Shown here in pieces: positions 1,536 to 21,104 of a DNA stretch of 23,116 nt (positions are counted from its first letter, which is position 1; each line of letters begins with the position of its first letter). The DNA is from a virus. The position numbers were made by a program, and so were the translations under genes. Location of the stretch: the IMG/VR virus record IMGVR_UViG_3300021130_000019, positions 1 through 23,116 of that record; one strand, given 5' to 3'. The notes beneath the pieces are model-generated. The model was not told the DNA's origin, made no database searches, and saw nothing but the letters and a program-made list of their open reading frames with translations.

Positions 1536-4500
1536 ATGACAATACTATTATTTGCAAACCAAGCGCAGACCACTCTTGCGTTACCAGTAGCCCCTTCTGA
1601 TACTACTATCTATGTAGCTAGTGGTACTGGTAATTATTTTCCCAACCCACAGGCTGGGCAAGGTTTTAAATTAACATTAGTTAATTCAACAAATTCATTA
1701 ATAGATGAAATTGTTTTGGTAACAGCCCGTTCTGGCGATGTCATGACTGTTGTTCGTGGTCAAGAAGGAACAATTCCTCAAGCTTGGAAGTTTGGAGATT
1801 TTGCAGTTAACTTAGATACTGCTGGTTCTTCTGATGCTTTTGTTCAGTTCGATCAAATTGAAAATGGTTCTATTAATGCGTACTTTAATAGTATGCGAAC
1901 CACTACAGGACAAGTGGATTCTGTTCCTGTAAACCCAACAGATTTAGTAAATAAAGCATATGCCGATTATTTAATTCAAGGCATGACACCAAAAAAAGAA
2001 TCTCAATGTGCCACAACGACAATTGCACAAGGTGGTGGAAATATTGCTTTATCTGGTTTGCCCATTATTGATGGTTATCAAACTGTTGCAGGAGATCGGG
2101 TTTTAGTTAAAAACCAAGACAGCCCTGCTCAAAATGGTATTTATGTAGCTAGTGCTGGAGCATGGCTCAGAGCTACAGATATGGATGTTTGGTCAGAAGT
2201 TCCAAGTGCTTTTACTTTTGTTCAAAACGGTACATACAATGTCAATACAGGTTGGGTAGCTATTGCTCCAGTAAACGGAACAATTAATGTAACTCCAATT
2301 AATTGGACACAGTTTTCTGGGTATGGAATTTCAGGTTACTCTGGTTATTCAGGTTATTCTGGCTATTCTGGCTTTAGTGGTAGCTCTGGCTATTCTGGAT
2401 CAGGTACATCAGGCTATTCAGGCATAAGCGGATTTAGCGGTTACTCTGGCTGGTCAGGAATCTCAGGATACAGCGGTCAATCAGGTTTTAGCGGCACTTC
2501 TGGTTATTCTGGATCAGGTGTATCAGGATTCTCTGGCTATAGTGGCTACAGCGGATTTAGTGGCATTTCTGGCTATTCTGGAATTAGTGGCTATTCTGGC
2601 ATTAGTGGATATAGCGGCATATCAGGCTATTCTGGTATTTCGGGATACAGCGGATCTGGCATTAGCGGATATAGCGGTTCTGGTATTTCAGGATATTCAG
2701 GAACATCAGGCTGGTCTGGCATCTCTGGCTGGTCAGGCTATTCAGGCATTAGCGGTGCATCAGGCACTTCAGGTTGGTCTGGTTATAGTGGTTATTCAGG
2801 CACATCAGGTTGGTCAGGTATTTCTGGTTGGTCAGGCTACTCTGGCACATCGGGTTGGTCAGGAATTTCTGGCTATTCTGGATATTCTGGAACTTCTGGT
2901 TTTAGCGGTTATTCAGGAATTTCTGGGTATAGCGGAATTTCTGGTTACTCAGGCATTTCTGGCTATTCAGGAGTATCAGGTTTATCAGGATATTCAGGAT
3001 CAGGTATTAGTGGGTATAGCGGATTTTCTGGTTTTAGTGGCGCACAAGGTACATCCATTAATATCAAAGGAACTGTTGCAACTCCAGCAGATTTACCAGC
3101 AACAGGCAATCAAGTTAATGATGCCTATATTGTTACTTCCAATGGCGATCTCTATGTATGGAATGGCACAGCTTGGTTTAACGCTGGTCAAATTGTAGGT
3201 ACATCGGGCTATTCAGGTTACTCTGGAACATCAGGATTTTCTGGTATTTCTGGCTACTCTGGCACAAGTGGATTTAGCGGTATCTCTGGTTATAGTGGCA
3301 CAAGTGGCTATAGCGGATTCTCAGGTATTTCTGGTTATTCAGGCTCTGGTGTAAGTGGATATAGCGGTTGGTCTGGTATATCAGGCTGGTCTGGCTATTC
3401 GGGCTATAGTGGCACTTCTGGCTACTCTGGTACATCAGGCTGGTCTGGTTACTCAGGAACTTCAGGATGGTCTGGTATTAGCGGATATAGCGGTTATTCT
3501 GGCACTTCAGGATGGTCTGGTATTAGCGGTTTTTCTGGTTACTCTGGCATCAGCGGAACTAATGGCGCTTCTGGATTTTCAGGAATTAGTGGTTACAGCG
3601 GTTACTCTGGAAGCGGTGTATCGGGGTATTCTGGATTTTCTGGTTATTCTGGAAGCGGTGTATCTGGTTATAGTGGATATAGCGGAAGCGGTGTAAGTGG
3701 CTATAGCGGATATTCAGGATATTCTGGTTCTGGTGTAAGCGGTTATAGCGGATATTCTGGTTTGGGATATTATGGATTAACCGCAACAGGATCAAATTCA
3801 TTAAGCCTTGGTAGCAAATCTTTTACTACCAATTTAGATGCTTCTACTACAGCTTTTTCTGTTGGGCAATATGTCAGAGTATTTTCTACATCTGTGCCAT
3901 CTCAATTTATGGAAGGCTTAATAACCGCATTTACAGGAACTTCACTAACAGTCAATATGACTTATGTAAATGGGGTAGCATCTTTTAGCAATTGGACAAT
4001 TACTGATTCTGGTGCTGTTGGAACTTCTGGCTATTCTGGCTATTCTGGTATTAGCGGGGCAAATGGCGCTTCTGGATTAAGTGGCTATTCAGGATTCAGC
4101 GGCATATCTGGGTACTCTGGATTCTCAGGAATTAGCGGATATTCTGGATCAGGTGTAAGCGGCTATTCTGGATACAGCGGAACAAATGGAACTAATGGCG
4201 CATCTGGATTAAGTGGTTACTCAGGATTTAGTGGCATATCCGGATATTCTGGTACAAACGGTTCTACCGGTATAAGCGGTTATAGCGGTTACAGCGGGGT
4301 TAACGGATCAACTGGAACTTCTGGTTATTCAGGCTATTCAGGTTTAAATGGTGCAACAGGAACATCTGGTTATAGCGGTTATTCAGGAGCTACTGGAGCA
4401 ACTGGCACTTCTGGTTACTCTGGTCAAAACGGTGCAACAGGTACTTCTGGCTATTCTGGTTATTCAGGACAAAATGGCGCAACTGGAACATCGGGATACA

Positions 4501-5054
4501 GCGGATATTCTGGACAAAATGGATCTACAGGAACATCAGGCTACAGCGGATATTCTGGAGCTACAGGTTCTGCTGGAACTTCTGGATACTCAGGTTATAG
4601 TGGTGTAGCCCCATCAACAGTTACTACTACCAGCACTTCTTCTGGTTCAACATTCTATTTAGATTTTGTAGCTGCCAATGGCGGTTCAGGACAAACTTTA
4701 TATAACAACGGATCTTTAACTTATGTTCCTTCAACAGGAACATTAACAGCTACATCTGTTGCTGGCTCATCAGATGAAAGATTAAAGAAAGATTGGGAAG
4801 ATCTACCTGAAAACTTTATTGAGTTGCTTGCACAAGTGAAACATGGGGTATTTACCCGTATCTCTAGCGGCAATAAAGAACCCGGTGTATCTGCTCAATC
4901 TATGCTAAATGCTTTAGCTCAAGCAGTTATTGAAGGCGAAGATGGTATGCTGGCAGTTAATTATGGCGGAGCAGCATTAGTTTCTGTTATAGAATTAGCA
5001 AACTTGGTTCTCAAACTTAAACAAGATATTGAGGAATTGAAAAACAAACCATAA
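1536..5054 (+). CDS. Large collagen-like tail fibre with S74 chaperone domain
   Basis: A 1172-residue fibre. Residues 1-105 are related to the N-terminus of the protein at 62. Residues about 150-260 carry a module seen in phage fibres, with the motif AGDRVLVKNQ...NGIYV...WLRATD. Then come three blocks of Gly-Tyr-Ser type triplets (261-502, 555-742, 829-1023; about 625 residues, units such as SGYSGISG), broken by two non-repeat islands. Island 503-554 has PADLP...NDAYIV..GDLYVWNGTAW; island 743-828 has SVGQYVRV...EGLITA. Both types recur in phage collagen-like proteins. From Ser1079 (SDERLKKD) to the end is an S74-type intramolecular chaperone domain, ending in a helical KLKQDIEELK tail. In characterised members this domain helps trimerisation and then cleaves itself off just before the Ser-Asp. 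AAGGG precedes the ATG. Function at the host surface is inferred. Confidence 0.88.
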   Translation: MTILLFANQAQTTLALPVAPSDTTIYVASGTGNYFPNPQAGQGFKLTLVNSTNSLIDEIVLVTARSGDVMTVVRGQEGTIPQAWKFGDFAVNLDTAGSSDAFVQFDQIENGSINAYFNSMRTTTGQVDSVPVNPTDLVNKAYADYLIQGMTPKKESQCATTTIAQGGGNIALSGLPIIDGYQTVAGDRVLVKNQDSPAQNGIYVASAGAWLRATDMDVWSEVPSAFTFVQNGTYNVNTGWVAIAPVNGTINVTPINWTQFSGYGISGYSGYSGYSGYSGFSGSSGYSGSGTSGYSGISGFSGYSGWSGISGYSGQSGFSGTSGYSGSGVSGFSGYSGYSGFSGISGYSGISGYSGISGYSGISGYSGISGYSGSGISGYSGSGISGYSGTSGWSGISGWSGYSGISGASGTSGWSGYSGYSGTSGWSGISGWSGYSGTSGWSGISGYSGYSGTSGFSGYSGISGYSGISGYSGISGYSGVSGLSGYSGSGISGYSGFSGFSGAQGTSINIKGTVATPADLPATGNQVNDAYIVTSNGDLYVWNGTAWFNAGQIVGTSGYSGYSGTSGFSGISGYSGTSGFSGISGYSGTSGYSGFSGISGYSGSGVSGYSGWSGISGWSGYSGYSGTSGYSGTSGWSGYSGTSGWSGISGYSGYSGTSGWSGISGFSGYSGISGTNGASGFSGISGYSGYSGSGVSGYSGFSGYSGSGVSGYSGYSGSGVSGYSGYSGYSGSGVSGYSGYSGLGYYGLTATGSNSLSLGSKSFTTNLDASTTAFSVGQYVRVFSTSVPSQFMEGLITAFTGTSLTVNMTYVNGVASFSNWTITDSGAVGTSGYSGYSGISGANGASGLSGYSGFSGISGYSGFSGISGYSGSGVSGYSGYSGTNGTNGASGLSGYSGFSGISGYSGTNGSTGISGYSGYSGVNGSTGTSGYSGYSGLNGATGTSGYSGYSGATGATGTSGYSGQNGATGTSGYSGYSGQNGATGTSGYSGYSGQNGSTGTSGYSGYSGATGSAGTSGYSGYSGVAPSTVTTTSTSSGSTFYLDFVAANGGSGQTLYNNGSLTYVPSTGTLTATSVAGSSDERLKKDWEDLPENFIELLAQVKHGVFTRISSGNKEPGVSAQSMLNALAQAVIEGEDGMLAVNYGGAALVSVIELANLVLKLKQDIEELKNKP
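2316..4604 (+). repeat. Degenerate Gly-Tyr-Ser coding repeat array
   Basis: Three stretches (about 2316-3041, 3198-3761 and 4020-4604) encode tandem G-Y-S / G-I-S / G-F-S / G-W-S / G-T-S triplets; the last block adds N-G-A-T-G units. At DNA level the repeat is imperfect because Ser alternates between TCN and AGY codons and Gly between GGA, GGC and GGT. Reading frames on both strands stay open over parts of it, which produces long spurious ORFs rich in Leu, Ala and Ile. These are by-products of the repeat, not genes. Confidence 0.85.
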
Positions 5055-5063
5055 GGATTAGTG

Positions 5064-6305
5064 ATGCAATCCCCAAAGTATTCGGTAGTGATACCGACTT
5101 ACAATAATTGTGAGAAATATCTAAAACCGTGTATTGATTCCATAATTAAATACACCGAAATGACCGACATAGAGTTGGTCATTTCTGCTAATGGCTGTAC
5201 CGATAACACTGCAAAATATCTAGAATATTTAGCAACAGCGATTCCTAACTTATATGTCGTTTGGAATGACGAACCTTTAGGTTTTGCCAAAGCTATTAAT
5301 CAAGGCATAGTAAATACTATTGGGCATAAAATAGTGTTTTTAAATAACGACACTTTGCTGTTAGAACAACCAAAAAATGATTGGTTAAAACGACTAGATA
5401 TTGGCGACATTGCGTCGGTTCTAACGCTAAACTCTCCTATTACAAATCAATCGTTTGCGGTTTTCTTTTGTACCATGATTGATCGCCAAGTATTTGATGA
5501 TATTGGCGTACTAGATGAATCATTTAAAACAGGTGGCTGTGAAGATATAGACTTTTGCAAACGAGCTACAGATGCGGGCTTTAGGCTAATAGATGTGGGC
5601 TATCGGGGTGATTTTCCAATATATCACGCTGCTGAAGGCACTGTTCACGATACTAGTCTTGTACAAGATTGGAGCCAAAAATTCCATGCCAACGAGCTGC
5701 GTTTAGCCAAAAAATGGAATACGGATCATTACCGCTATTTGCTATCCAATAATTACGAACGAGCTGTATTTCTAAAGGGCGATCCTGTATTTCCCCGAGA
5801 AACTACACGCTATGAATGGGCGGCAAAAAATCTTGATGACAGAACAAACGTCGTAGAAATTGGCTGTTCTACCGGTTACGGAAGTCAATTTTTCCCGAAC
5901 TACTATGACTATGTTGGTATTGATTACGACCCCATTATTGTGCAAGTAGCTAAAGAACAAGATTGGGGTTTTACAAGGGCTTTTACCCACGCTGACATTA
6001 ATAATTGTGACTTAGGAACGGCAGCCACTATTGTTGCTTTTGAAGTCATTGAGCATTTAGATAATGGTTTAGAGATTGTTGAAATGCTAAAAACAAAATG
6101 CCATCGGTTATTAATTTCGGTGCCGTGGAATGAGCCTAAAGGCTTTTGGGGTGAACATCACAAATTGCATGGCTTAAACGAAAGCCACTTCCCCGGCTTT
6201 ATGTTTTGGTACATTAACCACGCCGGAGTTTTATCTGCGGAGCCGCAAGCAATTACCCCTGAAAATCCTAGTAATTTAATGCTTTGCAGGTGGGATCATG
6301 AGTAA
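5064..6305 (+). CDS. GT2 glycosyltransferase-methyltransferase fusion
   Basis: Two-domain enzyme of about 413 residues. Residues about 7-200 are a GT-A fold family 2 glycosyltransferase: VIPTYNN start, ISANGCTDNT, GFAKAINQG, FLNNDT in place of the metal-binding DxD, and GGCEDIDFCKRA near the acceptor/catalytic region. Residues about 250-410 are a class I SAM-dependent methyltransferase, with motif I VEIGCSTGYG, motif II around VGIDYD and AFEVIEHLDNG. It would transfer a sugar from a nucleotide-sugar donor and methylate a sugar or nearby group; substrates cannot be read from sequence. I chose the ATG at 5064 because AGGA lies 6 bases before it; an in-frame GTG at 5061 is nearer to that site. 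It starts 10 bases after the large fibre gene and overlaps the next glycosyltransferase by 8 bases. Confidence 0.85.
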   Translation: MQSPKYSVVIPTYNNCEKYLKPCIDSIIKYTEMTDIELVISANGCTDNTAKYLEYLATAIPNLYVVWNDEPLGFAKAINQGIVNTIGHKIVFLNNDTLLLEQPKNDWLKRLDIGDIASVLTLNSPITNQSFAVFFCTMIDRQVFDDIGVLDESFKTGGCEDIDFCKRATDAGFRLIDVGYRGDFPIYHAAEGTVHDTSLVQDWSQKFHANELRLAKKWNTDHYRYLLSNNYERAVFLKGDPVFPRETTRYEWAAKNLDDRTNVVEIGCSTGYGSQFFPNYYDYVGIDYDPIIVQVAKEQDWGFTRAFTHADINNCDLGTAATIVAFEVIEHLDNGLEIVEMLKTKCHRLLISVPWNEPKGFWGEHHKLHGLNESHFPGFMFWYINHAGVLSAEPQAITPENPSNLMLCRWDHE

Positions 6306-17498: not shown

Positions 17499-18173
17499 AT
17501 GAGCAATTTAACAACATTTAAAAACGCAGGTTTACCAGCAGTAGCAGATTTATCCAAGGCTTTGAAGTCTAACTTAGCAACCGTTACCGATGTTGGTACT
17601 GTGATTATTAAGATGGACAAGACAGGTCATTGGGTATTTGGTTCAGATCAAACTGAAACGCAAGATGGTTCCGAATGGGCTATCAATCCTTTTAGCTTTG
17701 TACATGGTTACATCGCTTGGGGCGCGTCTGAAGTATTGGGTGAGAAGATGGTTCCCATTAATCAACCACTACCTGAACTCGAGCCAGCACCAGCCAATGC
17801 TAAAAAAGGTTGGGAAGTACAAGTCGGTTTAGAAATGAAGTGCATCAATGGTGACGACAAGGGGCTAACAGCTCGTTGGGCAACCACAGCAACCGGCGGC
17901 AAACGCGCCATCCAAGCATTGGGTGTTGAGATTGCCGAGCAGATCGAGAAAGACTCTAGCAAGCCAGTTGCCATCGTTGCATTAGAAACTGAGCATTACA
18001 CTCACAAGTCTTATGGTAAGGTATACACCCCAAAGATTCGTGTAATTCGTTTTGAGTCTATGGAAGTGGAATCAGCTACCGATGCGCCTGAACTTGAGGC
18101 ACCAGAAGCAGATGAACCAGAAGTAGCAGCAGCTCCAGCAGCGCCAGTGCGTCGTCGCAGAGCAGCCGTATAA
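17499..18173 (+). CDS. SSB-like phage replication/recombination protein
   Basis: 224 residues. Begins MSNLTTFKNAGLPAV and contains TGHWVFGSDQ, EWAINPFSFVHGYIAW, LEMKCINGDDKGLTARWATT and HKSYGKVYTPKIRVI: a beta-rich body with an acidic/Ala-rich tail ending in RRRRAAV. Proteins of this kind are common beside DUF2800 nucleases in phage operons, in the slot where DUF2815 ssDNA-binding proteins occur. I therefore infer ssDNA binding; the OB fold cannot be proven by eye. The basic tail differs from the acidic tip of bacterial SSB. GGAG occurs about 12 bases before the ATG. Confidence 0.72.
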   Translation: MSNLTTFKNAGLPAVADLSKALKSNLATVTDVGTVIIKMDKTGHWVFGSDQTETQDGSEWAINPFSFVHGYIAWGASEVLGEKMVPINQPLPELEPAPANAKKGWEVQVGLEMKCINGDDKGLTARWATTATGGKRAIQALGVEIAEQIEKDSSKPVAIVALETEHYTHKSYGKVYTPKIRVIRFESMEVESATDAPELEAPEADEPEVAAAPAAPVRRRRAAV

Positions 18174-18285
18174 ACTTGTATAAACACGGGGTGAAAGTAC
18201 TGACACTATTCAGCTCAAGTACTCGAGGACGAACGACTAAAAAGACTTGCGAGTAGCCCCACCTAATTTAACTAGAGGACAAATC
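18174..18285 (+). ncRNA. Candidate structured mRNA leader A
   Basis: 112 bases untranslated. GGGG (18188-18191) can close onto CCCC (18257-18260); inside, TACTCG (18220-18225) pairs with CGAGTA (18250-18255) and CTGA/TCAG (18200-18203, 18210-18213) forms a small hairpin. AAGTACT occurs twice (18195-18201, 18217-18223), giving an alternative partner for AGTA. The 5' ACGGGG and 3' AGTA(G)CCCCACCTAA are shared with leader B. It precedes the 67-aa gene, whose ribosome site (AGAGG) lies just past the clamp. Fold is by hand, not computed. Confidence 0.35.
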
Positions 18286-18489
18286 ATGGTAGACAGATCA
18301 AATTTAAACCCGACAGAGCGTCGGCAAATCAGCGAAGTAAAGATGGCGATGGTTCGCGCCGCGCAAGTCAATATTAAGAATATTTTCCCAAGTCTTGGCG
18401 CCAAGAGCGAAAAAGTGCACCACACTAAGAGCTTGTCGCATACGCGTAAGGGTTCAGGACGTAAGCACCAGCAAGGTAAAGTAGTATAA
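18286..18489 (+). CDS. 67-aa basic protein
   Basis: Begins MVDRSNLNPTERRQISEVKM and ends HTRKGSGRKHQQGKVV. Start ATG at 18286 chosen for AGAGG 7 bases upstream; an in-frame TTG at 18247 would cut into leader A. N-terminal helix, then a strongly basic, His-rich C-terminal tail that could bind nucleic acid. It sits between two related-looking structured leaders in the replication operon. Family not recognised. Confidence 0.65.
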   Translation: MVDRSNLNPTERRQISEVKMAMVRAAQVNIKNIFPSLGAKSEKVHHTKSLSHTRKGSGRKHQQGKVV

Positions 18490-18640
18490 CGATTACGGGG
18501 GAAATAATCGGCTCGCGAAAGTGGATACACAAGTAAGCCTTGTCCAAAGCGGGAAGCCTAACATCCTAGGAAAAATGGTTAGGTAGCAAGAGGATAGTAA
18601 ACCGATTAAAGTACCCCACCTAAATTAGAGGATTAGGATA
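18490..18640 (+). ncRNA. Candidate structured RNA, leader B
   Basis: 151 bases without a reading frame. Hand fold: GGGG (18497-18500 or 18498-18501) with CCCC (18614-18617) and TAATCGG (18505-18511) with CCGATTA (18602-18608) nest as an outer clamp. Inside, CTCGC (18512-18516) pairs with GCGGG (18549-18553, one G-U), enclosing GG-ACAAG/CTTGT-CC (18523-18545). A second arm is CCTAAC/GTTAGG (18557-18562, 18578-18583). An upstream CGATTA (18490-18495) can instead pair with TAATCG (18505-18510), exposing CCCC. CCTAA (18619-18623) can pair with TTAGG (18633-18637), which is the ribosome site of the next gene. It could be a riboswitch-like leader or a free phage ncRNA. Confidence 0.5.
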
Positions 18641-18808
18641 ATGAGATTCATTATTGGATTTATTGCTAGTGCAATTTTATTAACTTTTACATGGTGGCTG
18701 GCTGGATATAACTTTGACCAACGAAATATTGATGTTGCTTTTGGATTTGGTATGAGTGTAATTCTCAGCTTTATTGCTGGTATGGGTGCGGAAACCACTA
18801 AATACTAA
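18641..18808 (+). CDS. 55-aa two-helix membrane protein
   Basis: Reads MRFIIGFIASAILLTFTWWL...AGYNFDQRNIDVAFGFGMSV...ILSFIAGMGAETTKY. Two transmembrane segments (about 3-22 and 33-48) with a short polar loop. AGGATTAGGATA before the ATG is a strong ribosome site and may be masked by the leader's CCTAA. Small membrane proteins in early operons are often host-takeover or superinfection-exclusion factors, but nothing here shows that. Confidence 0.72.
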   Translation: MRFIIGFIASAILLTFTWWLAGYNFDQRNIDVAFGFGMSVILSFIAGMGAETTKY

Positions 18809-18822
18809 AAAGGATTAGGACA

Positions 18823-19158
18823 ATGATTGTAGATAACAAAGACGGTACATTTAGTATTAAACGCCTTACTGTATGGGAAATGTCCGCTGACGAAGTAAAG
18901 ATTTTGCAAGAGCAAAATAAACAGCTTAAAGAGTTTGTTAAAGCAATATTAGTTCATGGCGGTGACGGCGTTGGTGATTGGGATGGCTATGAATTACAAG
19001 AGTTGGCAGTTAAATCAGGGCTGTTTATAGAAAAGACAATGACCGAGCCATGTAATTTAGGTAAAGAAGAAACCGAAAGCTGTTTATGCCGCGAGTATTG
19101 CTATGGCGAAGAATCGTGGGAATGCTACAGAATTAATAGATTCTTGTTGGAGGATTGA
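18823..19158 (+). CDS. 111-aa hypothetical protein with C-terminal Cys cluster
   Basis: Begins MIVDNKDGTFSIKRLTVWEM. A central helix (DEVKILQEQNKQLKEFVKAI) is followed by a Cys-rich tail (CNLGKEETESCLCREYCYG...C) with five or six cysteines that could bind a metal. AGGATTAGGACA precedes the ATG, almost the same initiation sequence as the preceding gene. The stop overlaps the polymerase start (TGATG). Family not recognised. Confidence 0.72.
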   Translation: MIVDNKDGTFSIKRLTVWEMSADEVKILQEQNKQLKEFVKAILVHGGDGVGDWDGYELQELAVKSGLFIEKTMTEPCNLGKEETESCLCREYCYGEESWECYRINRFLLED

Positions 19159-21104
19159 TGTCAATTCTTTGGATTGACTTTGAAACCAAGTCCCGTTGTA
19201 ACTTGTTAACGCGAGGCGTATACAACTACGCGCAAGACATCTCTACGGAAGTCTTGTGTATGTCGTATGCGTTTGATGATAACGAAGTTATAACGTGGAC
19301 GCCTGACATGCCGTTCCCAGAAGAAGTCATGCGGCATGAAGGCATGATTTACGCTCACAATGCCGCGTTCGAGCGTCTTATCTTTTGGTATGTCTTGCAG
19401 GTCAATTTCAAGCTCGAGCAATTCTATTGCACCGCTACGCAAGCGCGAGCCAATTGCGCTCCCGGATCATTGGAAGATGTTGGTCGTTTTGCTGGCGCCT
19501 CGATGCGGAAGGATTTCAGAGGATCTCAACTGGTTCGCGCTCTATCTATTCCGCAATCGGATGGAACATTTAATAATGATCCTGAATTGATGAAAGAAAT
19601 GATTGAGTACTGCGAGCAGGACGTTCGAGTGATGCGAAACATTAGCAAACTGATGCGTCCATTATCAAAGGAAGAATTAGATGATTACCATATCAACGAG
19701 CGCATTAATGATAAGGGCGTATTGGTCGACGTATCACTTGCCCAAGCTGCTATGTTGTACTCGGAAGAAGAGATCGCGGAAGTACAAAAGCTTGTCGTTG
19801 AAATTACCGAAGGCGAAATCACCTCTGTACGTTCTCCCAAGATGCGGGAGTGGGTTCAGTCGCGGGTTGGTAGCGAAGCGCTCAAGCTCATGGAGAGCTA
19901 TAAAGAGGGTCGAAAAAAGTATTCAATCGACAAGAATGTACGAAATACTCTCCTCGCTTTTGCAGACGAAAACCCAGACGAAGTTCCGCCGCATGTAGCC
20001 GATGTTATTCAATGTGCCGATGATTTGTGGGCATCTTCAGTAGCGAAGTTTCAGCGTATGGTGAACTTGGCTGACATCGAGGATCACCGCGTTCGTGGTG
20101 CCTTTATGTTTAACGGCGGTTCAGCTACGGGAAGGGCTTCTAGCTTTGGGCTACAGGTGCATAACTTTACTCGTAAATGTGCTAAGAACCCTGAAGCTGT
20201 TCGCGCTGCGATGGTTAAAGGCGACGATATTGTGCCGCAATATGGTAAAAGAGTGACCGATGTGCTAAAAGGAATGTTGCGTCCAGCGATTGTTCCATCT
20301 AAGGGTAAATACTTAGTAGTGGCAGACTGGGCAGGTATTGAGGCACGATGCAATCCGTGGTTATCTAACAAACCTCAAGCCGAAGAAGTCCTCGATATTT
20401 TTAGGACTGGAAAGGATATTTATGTTCGAGAAGCTGCGGGAATTTTCCATTGTGATGAAGCAGACATTACGCCTGATCGCAGACAGATTGGCAAGGTCGC
20501 TATTCTTTCATGTGGTTATGGTGGTGGTATTGGTGCTTTTGCTGCGATGGGTCGTAACTATGGTGTGGTTCTACCCGAATCTGACGCCAAGCGAACGGTG
20601 GATGCGTGGCGTAGGGCAAACCAGTGGGCGGTGCATTACTGGCAGGAACTTGAGTCAGCCTATACCCGTGCAATGCGTAATCCGGGTTACGAATTTTCTG
20701 CGGGTCGAGTAACTTATCTATATGACACACAACATCTTTGGTACGCACTTCCAAGTGGGCGCGTGTTATGCTATCCATATGCGCGCTTAGATGACGAGGG
20801 GATCTCCTACGCCAAAGCAGCGTGGAAACCGGCTGCAATGGCTACAGAATGGGCGAGAGCTAGACTCTGGAAAGGGCTTGCTTGCGAGAATATTACGCAA
20901 GCTGTTGCCAATGATATTCTCCGCAATTCGCTACGACGATTAGATAACGTGGTTTTGCACGTTCATGACGAAATAGTTATCGAAACTGATAGTCCAGAAG
21001 AAGTAAAATTACAGATGGAAAAAATTATGTGCGAGCCACCCGTTTGGGGTCAGGGCTTACCCTTAGACGTAGAAGTAAACATTATGACAAGGTACGGAAA
21101 GTAG
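19158..21104 (+). CDS. DNA polymerase, family A, with 3'-5' exonuclease
   Basis: 648 residues from the ATG at 19158 (GGAGG upstream; a TTG codon at 19155 is less likely). N-terminal DnaQ-like proofreading domain: DFET (Asp7, Glu9), HNAAFE (Asn68) and YCEQD (Asp155). Polymerase domain: TGRASSFGLQVHNF, motif A VADWAGIEAR (Asp390, Glu395), O-helix RRQIGKVAILSCGYG (Arg442, Lys446, Tyr454) and motif C VHDE (Asp604, Glu605). The residue that aligns with E. coli Pol I Phe762 is Leu450. Length and domain order match phage replicative Pol I-like enzymes without a 5' nuclease. It should copy the phage genome with the primase-helicase encoded downstream. All catalytic residues are present. Confidence 0.95.
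   Translation: MSILWIDFETKSRCNLLTRGVYNYAQDISTEVLCMSYAFDDNEVITWTPDMPFPEEVMRHEGMIYAHNAAFERLIFWYVLQVNFKLEQFYCTATQARANCAPGSLEDVGRFAGASMRKDFRGSQLVRALSIPQSDGTFNNDPELMKEMIEYCEQDVRVMRNISKLMRPLSKEELDDYHINERINDKGVLVDVSLAQAAMLYSEEEIAEVQKLVVEITEGEITSVRSPKMREWVQSRVGSEALKLMESYKEGRKKYSIDKNVRNTLLAFADENPDEVPPHVADVIQCADDLWASSVAKFQRMVNLADIEDHRVRGAFMFNGGSATGRASSFGLQVHNFTRKCAKNPEAVRAAMVKGDDIVPQYGKRVTDVLKGMLRPAIVPSKGKYLVVADWAGIEARCNPWLSNKPQAEEVLDIFRTGKDIYVREAAGIFHCDEADITPDRRQIGKVAILSCGYGGGIGAFAAMGRNYGVVLPESDAKRTVDAWRRANQWAVHYWQELESAYTRAMRNPGYEFSAGRVTYLYDTQHLWYALPSGRVLCYPYARLDDEGISYAKAAWKPAAMATEWARARLWKGLACENITQAVANDILRNSLRRLDNVVLHVHDEIVIETDSPEEVKLQMEKIMCEPPVWGQGLPLDVEVNIMTRYGK

Follow-up and report, generated by a model that had tools for sequence, protein, structure and literature searches.

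Structure of the intergenic RNA

The locus considered here lies at positions 18490–18640 of a 23,116-base virus record (the window, meaning the record at its full length), and it raises the question of whether the gap between two small genes encodes a structured RNA, whether such an RNA switches between alternative folds, and whether it stands alone or has relatives in other phages. The location given by an initial annotation, between two small genes, was confirmed, and it lies upstream of a DNA polymerase gene. On the + strand, the gap is preceded by the gene of a basic 67-aa protein (18286–18489) and followed by the genes of a 55-aa protein, membrane-type by eye (18641–18808), and a 111-aa protein (18823–19158), none of the three being assigned to a Pfam or PHROGs family. 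The DNA polymerase gene (phrog_17; 19155–21104, + strand) comes next, with a listed start at TTG 19155 and an ATG at 19158. Neither a sigma-70-like promoter nor, on the + strand, an intrinsic terminator (GC hairpin plus U-run) was found between positions 18000 and 18900 of the window. Elsewhere in the window, at about 2330–4600, a long repeat (Ser-Gly-Tyr-Ser-Gly by eye) probably belongs to a tail or fibre protein.

The RNA under study, element B, spans 18497–18617 on the + strand. Its minimum-energy fold (−32.4 kcal/mol) contained, nested and in place, all five helices that had been described for the gap. The outer helix P1 pairs GGGG (18497–18500) with CCCC (18614–18617) at probabilities of 0.84–0.85, and P2 pairs TAATCGG (18505–18511) with CCGATTA (18602–18608) at 0.89–1.0. 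Between the two helices lies an internal loop, GAAA (18501–18504) on one strand and AAGTA (18609–18613) on the other, which had been overlooked and which we assign, from its sequence signature only, to the bulged-G (loop E / sarcin-ricin) type. The interior, here called the payload, folds into two hairpins, one (18512–18553) closed by CTCGC (18512–18516) and GCGGG (18549–18553) around an inner helix, and the other (18557–18583) formed by CCTAAC (18557–18562) and GTTAGG (18578–18583). A possible but weak pseudoknot (18563–18595) would join ATCCT (18563–18567) to AGGAT (18591–18595); an equally long complementary run was present in 260 of 5000 shuffles of the loop and tail. The expected advantage over dinucleotide-shuffled sequences was detected, although it was not extreme: z was −2.38 for 18497–18617, with 4 of 200 shuffles folding as well, and −1.71 for the longer stretch 18480–18650 (8 of 200).

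The second copy of CGATTA (18490–18495), which had been proposed to compete for the P2 strand, does exist, within the 7-nt spacer (18490–18496) that separates the stop codon (18487–18489) from P1. Its pairing with 18505–18510, however, had a probability of 0.001 and was less stable by 4.2 kcal/mol, and on this ground the idea of a switch through this pairing was discarded. The proposed covering of the ribosome site TTAGG(A) by the downstream CCTAA was indeed predicted (0.38–0.70 per pair), but it need not be special to element B, because many members of the wider class described below have an ACC tail past P1, including those from a scan that did not demand one. Element B is a real structured RNA; it is not a switch of the kind proposed, nor is it without relatives.

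Among the sequences searched, an identical copy of the payload of element B was found in one contig only (IMGVR_UViG_3300020711_000014; loci L003, L083, L085 and L107), and a BLAST search of the payload against phage records gave no homologue. A second DNA-pattern match lay inside coding-like DNA of another phage, lacked the frame, and was rejected. Since the payload has no independent homologue, and so no covariation, the inner hairpins are unproven; the search for compensating changes is inapplicable to them, as they are carried by that one contig with an identical copy, and such changes were found instead at the level of the class (P1 and the inner stem in class D, P2 in elements built like B).

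A constant frame shared by many phage RNAs

Sequence comparison places element B in a large class of phage RNAs, in which a constant frame encloses an exchangeable payload. From the outside inwards, the frame runs through the G/C-rich helix P1, an internal loop of GAAA and AGTA, and then a further helix, P2. Element B very probably belongs to this class: its G/C-rich P1 directly flanks GAAA and AGTA, its P2, with 7 pairs, lies directly inside the loop, and P1 begins 7 nt past the stop codon, within the 4–8 nt typical of the class. A frame with at least four G-C pairs in P1 flanking GAAA...AGTA, and at least five pairs in P2, was absent from 9.29 Mb of reversed control sequence, counted on both strands, and when the window was shuffled by mononucleotide 200 times, P1 and GAAA...AGTA with a P2 of at least five pairs never arose.

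Two frame-only scans, blind to gene content, matched at least 120 viral DNA stretches in one case and 64 in the other, with overlap. These scans required P1, GAAA, AGTA and the ACC tail and left P2 and the interior free; the frame without any of these imposed parts is seen in the protein-anchored loci only. The commonest subclass, class D, accounted for 94 of the 158 distinct elements of the two scans, among the matches listed, and is built of a GC/GC P2, then a second conserved loop with GGATG opposite (A)YGCA, then a covarying stem. Element B lacks this signature and carries TAATCGG/CCGATTA and a junction in its place. When the class D core was scanned with P1 left free and the loops required, at least 120 viral stretches were matched, partly those of the frame scans, and 214 distinct class D members were collected altogether.

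The same core gave 33 matches in bacterial genomes, 13 of them with a P1 of at least 4 pairs. By title, 10 of these 13 came from betaproteobacteria, either genomes or bins (Limnohabitans, Polynucleobacter, Cupriavidus, Comamonas and a Burkholderiaceae isolate among them), two shared a bin labelled Armatimonadetes, and the last came from a Verrucomicrobiota bin. Among the other 20, one match in Pelomonas (L321, with a 3-bp P1) and perhaps L299 look genuine, while most of the rest appear chance or coding-like by eye. Named phage records yielded two weak matches to a minimal element (MW202462 and MW202544, E 0.03); further ones, at E 0.06 or worse, were chance-like and were set aside.

Exactly one class D element was present in each of 25 matching records (34 examined, with a pattern that misses variants), and exactly one type A element, a further type described below, in each of 24 of 24 records. 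Different types can share one genome, as in the window (A and B) and in L008. Two frame elements in tandem were observed at 5113–5265 of L126 and are suggested, by the flank only, at about 1860–1960 of L313. In six loci (L110, L148, L157, L171, L181 and L219) the ACC tail was followed directly by a further hairpin-like conserved stretch (GCC..AGC...GTGGCG).

Element A and the surrounding loci

The window holds a second member of the class, element A (18188–18260, + strand), about 240 nt upstream of element B, between the 224-aa and 67-aa genes; both this element and the large class holding A and B had been missed by the initial annotation. Element A reads GGGGT-GAAA ... GAGTA-GCCCC, then ACCTAA, and it has the same P1 and GAAA/GAGTA frame as element B, with another payload inside (TATTCAG...CTAAAAAG core). 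P1 flanks GAAA/AGTA and a P2 of 3 pairs lies inside. It begins 14 nt past the stop codon at 18171–18173, outside the 4–8 nt of the class, and its single-sequence fold was not significant (z −0.56).

The upstream 224-aa protein (17499–18173, + strand) was assigned to phrog_9528, labelled nucleotidyltransferase. Its structure model (mean pLDDT 78.9) matched a chain of the phiC31 integrase-RDF complex (E 0.006, TM 0.35) and, weakly, numerous SSBs (E at best 0.075, TM no higher than 0.35), matches that do no more than suggest an OB-fold. The name DUF2815 found no confirmation in Pfam and was dropped.

In loci fetched through the 224-aa protein, the gap to the DNA polymerase gene carries, by eye, differing structured RNAs or none. 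The GAAA/AGTA frame was present in several of them (e.g. L031, L039, L041, L042, L048, L057, L069 and L077), and in others a helix directly enclosed the type A core. Two other relatives of the 55-aa protein (L108 and L109) had no frame element upstream. Just 3′ of the homologue of 17499–18173, loci L017, L018, L019, L034, L051 and L072 showed a third type, with two interleaved helices (a pseudoknot by eye). Behind the 67-aa homologue in L012 and L099–L102, and behind the 224-aa homologue in L036 and L069, lies yet another structured RNA, GTGCTTGGCGGC..., whose long hairpin resembles a terminator; the genes directly after it look by eye like NUMOD4/HNH endonucleases.

Covariation of the paired regions

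With P1 left free, 68 of 78 distinct class D elements, among the matches listed, paired over at least 4 bp, against a mean of 19.6 of 78 when the right flanks were re-dealt. The P1 types included GGGG/CCCC, TTGG/CCAA, GGCC/GGCC, AGCC/GGCT, GAGG/CCTC and GCCT/AGGC. This pairing count covers 78 distinct elements of the scan, and the count of G-U and A-C cells covers 109; both counts are unfiltered, whereas elements with a P1 below 3 bp were removed from the collected class D set, and so from its alignment and from the counts of its spacing, neighbouring genes and payloads. Across the 67 aligned class D elements the covariation score of P1 was 0.437, compared with 0.121 in shuffles and 0.196 in the best slid version, and both sides had changed in 103 cells against 27.5 in shuffles.

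The inner stem of class D likewise covaries. P2 is invariant in class D, and hence provides no covariation evidence there; among 64 non-D frame elements (a set that takes in a handful of class D elements with slight alterations), 30 had a P2 of at least 4 pairs, against 7.5 when re-dealt, and element B is built in the same way. The 327 unfiltered P1 cells contained 11 G-U and 1 A-C, an excess that favours an RNA of the coding strand.

Placement relative to gene ends and starts

The distance from the stop codon to P1 was 4–8 nt in 145 of 177 class D cases, and in 119 of 137 cases of the two frame scans, among the matches listed; for type A, the distance to the helix fell in the same range in 39 of 46 cases, again among the matches listed. 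Judging by ribosome footprints, P1 could hardly lie much nearer than 4–8 nt past the stop codon and still remain folded while a ribosome terminates. Such a spacing points to an RNA that would stay folded on the working mRNA.

The type A core scan matched at least 119 stretches. In 72 of 72 distinct examples examined the closing helix, of strongly varying sequence, had at least 5 pairs, a count biased by the helices having been picked as the best available. In 25 type A cases without a gene end within 40 nt, near-identical sequences included, the best −10-like hexamer lay 6–8 nt before the helix in 18; the mean −10 score of these leaders was 5.06, against 4.06 at control positions, and no clear −35 signal was detected in the same 25 cases (2.76 vs. 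2.54). Given a −10-like box 6–8 nt ahead, the mRNA may begin with the type A element itself at such sites. Upstream of the type A leader in L430 and L433, the same genome carried a further GGGGCTGGC...GTCAGCCCC-like element, which follows an ORF related by eye to exonuclease-type upstream proteins.

A gene start usually lies downstream of the element. Starts within 11 nt of P1 had an SD-like tetramer in 0 of 23 cases (the searchable space being at most 8 nt, and L126 and L409 possibly spurious), and starts farther than 11 nt away in 86 of 129.

A cis-acting mRNA domain is favoured by the fixed spacing to a stop codon or promoter-like box together with the gene start that follows, and we infer, as the likeliest reading and with a probability of roughly 45%, that the elements act in cis, as leader or intercistronic domains of the mRNA. 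The upstream gene would be finished by the ribosome, or the RNA polymerase would start, without the element being unfolded; the folded element would then shield or mark the end of the mRNA and determine initiation at the gene that follows, while the payload would be a tolerated or separately selected module. The initial suggestion of a new phage cis-regulatory RNA is plausible to this extent.

Genes adjoining class D

The genes ahead of class D bear on a different placement of function, in a 3′-UTR element of the upstream gene, chiefly an ssDNA-binding one, that would raise mRNA stability or mediate feedback through the bound protein. Of 169 upstream proteins obtained, 150 were scanned against PHROGs and Pfam, and about 40 of the 150 matched ssDNA-binding or annealing families, if the groups do not overlap (SSB-like 18, DUF669 type 9, Enc34/Gp2.5 type 6, SSB 4, RecT 3). 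A C-terminal PF, which is a signature of SSB tails, ended 50 of 177 class D upstream proteins, compared with 159 of 10843 mechanical ORFs, a set with many non-genes in it. Downstream proteins were varied, the largest family comprising 29 of the 132 scanned (137 obtained). This enrichment of class D behind ssDNA-binding genes would suit a function tied to the upstream gene in place of a cis leader one. On the other hand, the same frame is found in the same position behind other genes (45 upstream-protein clusters in the frame-scan set and 49 in the class D set), and type A, with 0 of 46 PF ends among its upstream proteins, also occurs where no gene ends nearby, so that a 3′-UTR element fits class D only; we regard it as distinctly unlikely.

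For the largest upstream family, the structure model (pLDDT 63.5) had no match better than E 0.37. HNH-like genes, by eye, adjoin some elements (L039 and L051).

Comparison with known RNAs

The proposal that the RNA falls outside known families held: Rfam 15 gave no match for the window at gathering thresholds or for 18170–18660 at E values up to 10, and none at gathering in 20 loci with class D elements. Families of the Weinberg 2017 survey should reportedly be in Rfam.

Other described elements share single traits with the class. In cluster K mycobacteriophages, the Extended Start-Associated Sequences (ESAS) occur several times per genome as imperfect inverted repeats of 17 bp associated with a 13-bp SAS, the spacer being given as 4–13 bp in the part of the source consulted (PMC3203893). 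Like the present elements, they lie immediately ahead of start codons and consist of a variable spacer between complementary, conserved arms. The present elements differ in occurring once per record for each type, in their bulged-G-type loop and in a payload of a few to more than 80 nt that is often structured. Copy number and arms set the class apart from ESAS. Two further motifs, as far as they are covered in the consulted portion of their source, resemble it in context (PMC2864571): the L17 downstream element is a structured RNA directly behind one gene class, with possible feedback, but it belongs to a cellular ribosomal protein gene and has a different structure, and the STAXI motif lies near ssDNA-binding and other DNA-handling genes, but is a pseudoknot in two or three tandem repeats.

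The put RNAs of phage HK022 deserve closer comparison, since an RNA-only processive antiterminator of this type, whose nascent domain binds RNA polymerase and causes read-through of early-operon terminators, would be another way to account for the elements. According to the passages available, put RNAs are about 70 nt long, putL lies just downstream of the early promoter, and each has two stem-loops in a V (PMC9378689). The elements studied here are also often about 70 nt and occur as one of each type per record, and as leaders behind promoter-like boxes, adjoining replication and recombination genes; put shares the size, the early phage context, the leader or near-leader position and the number of two per genome (PMC9378689). 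Element B and class D, however, each form one closed domain, and the two adjacent stem-loops of put were not found in them; nor does the same source, in those passages, give put a constant frame or exchangeable payload, and antitermination has been demonstrated for put (PMC9378689). A crude count showed no enrichment of terminator-like sites downstream on the sense strand, with 0.041 per kb there, 0.070 antisense downstream and 0.041 sense upstream of the elements, and antitermination leaves the tight spacing to the stop codon and the next gene unexplained. Altogether, a put-type function, the strongest competitor of the cis-acting domain, is unlikely.

Payload exchange inside the frame

The interiors range from almost nothing (41–45-nt elements L236, L238 and L244) to over 80 nt. 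Class D payloads of at least 20 nt fell into 142 sequence clusters, and 14 of the 17 clusters with at least 3 members occur behind at least 2 upstream-protein BLAST clusters, several with differing P1; compensating changes in payload stems are visible by eye. The type A core illustrates the exchange, occurring closed directly, inside the GAAA/AGTA frame (the window) and inside the D frame (L156). Some payloads recall tRNA: that of L325 scored 25.7 bits (E 0.0009) against the Rfam tRNA model, under the gathering score of 29, that of L160 matched only T-arm-like fragments of the tmRNA and mascRNA models, and those of L165 and L335 look tRNA-like by eye. ARAGORN reported no tRNA gene in L160, L165, L228 or L156.

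Payload families that recur across gene contexts, with conserved loops within variable helices, could belong to ligand-sensing aptamers or attenuators of the riboswitch kind, each payload reading its own signal, and T-runs directly after the closing helix of several type A leaders (L427, L430, L448 and L482) may mark some of these as attenuators. Against this stand the lack of a competitive alternative pairing in element B, the presence of TTTT within 16 nt past P1 in just 47 of 212 class D elements, the 41–45-nt members with almost no payload, and the varied downstream genes, and we consider such a function quite improbable.

The finding that one payload can accompany several P1 sequences and several upstream genes, and the HNH-like neighbours, might also be read as the trace of a selfish or recombination element that acts as DNA and spreads via its conserved arms. 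Each type nevertheless occurs in one copy per record, and the bias of G-U over A-C, together with the fixed stop-codon spacing, points to RNA; a DNA element is accordingly very improbable.

Returning to RNA domains on the mRNA, a bolder reading, which we offer tentatively and hold to be less probable than not, is that the frame is a universal RNA socket, constant, precisely placed and common to many phages, into which unrelated folds, tRNA-like ones included, are plugged and exchanged between phages and genes, with one copy of a given payload per genome, and that the payload is a functional, rapidly diversifying module and not filler. Jointly with this socket, and with the same reserve, the module could be a decoy, a receptor or a part that docks to the polymerase or the ribosome. 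We know of no frame-and-cassette RNA system of this kind. A literature search covering titles and the beginnings of abstracts returned no such system and nothing resembling the element.

The elements described here make up an apparently uncatalogued class with strong compensatory evidence, and their fixed site between phage genes makes a role in gene expression directly testable. The natural swapping of payloads in one frame, tRNA-like bodies included, amounts to a ready experiment on the recombination of RNA modules, and the frame may serve as a stable scaffold for RNA parts.
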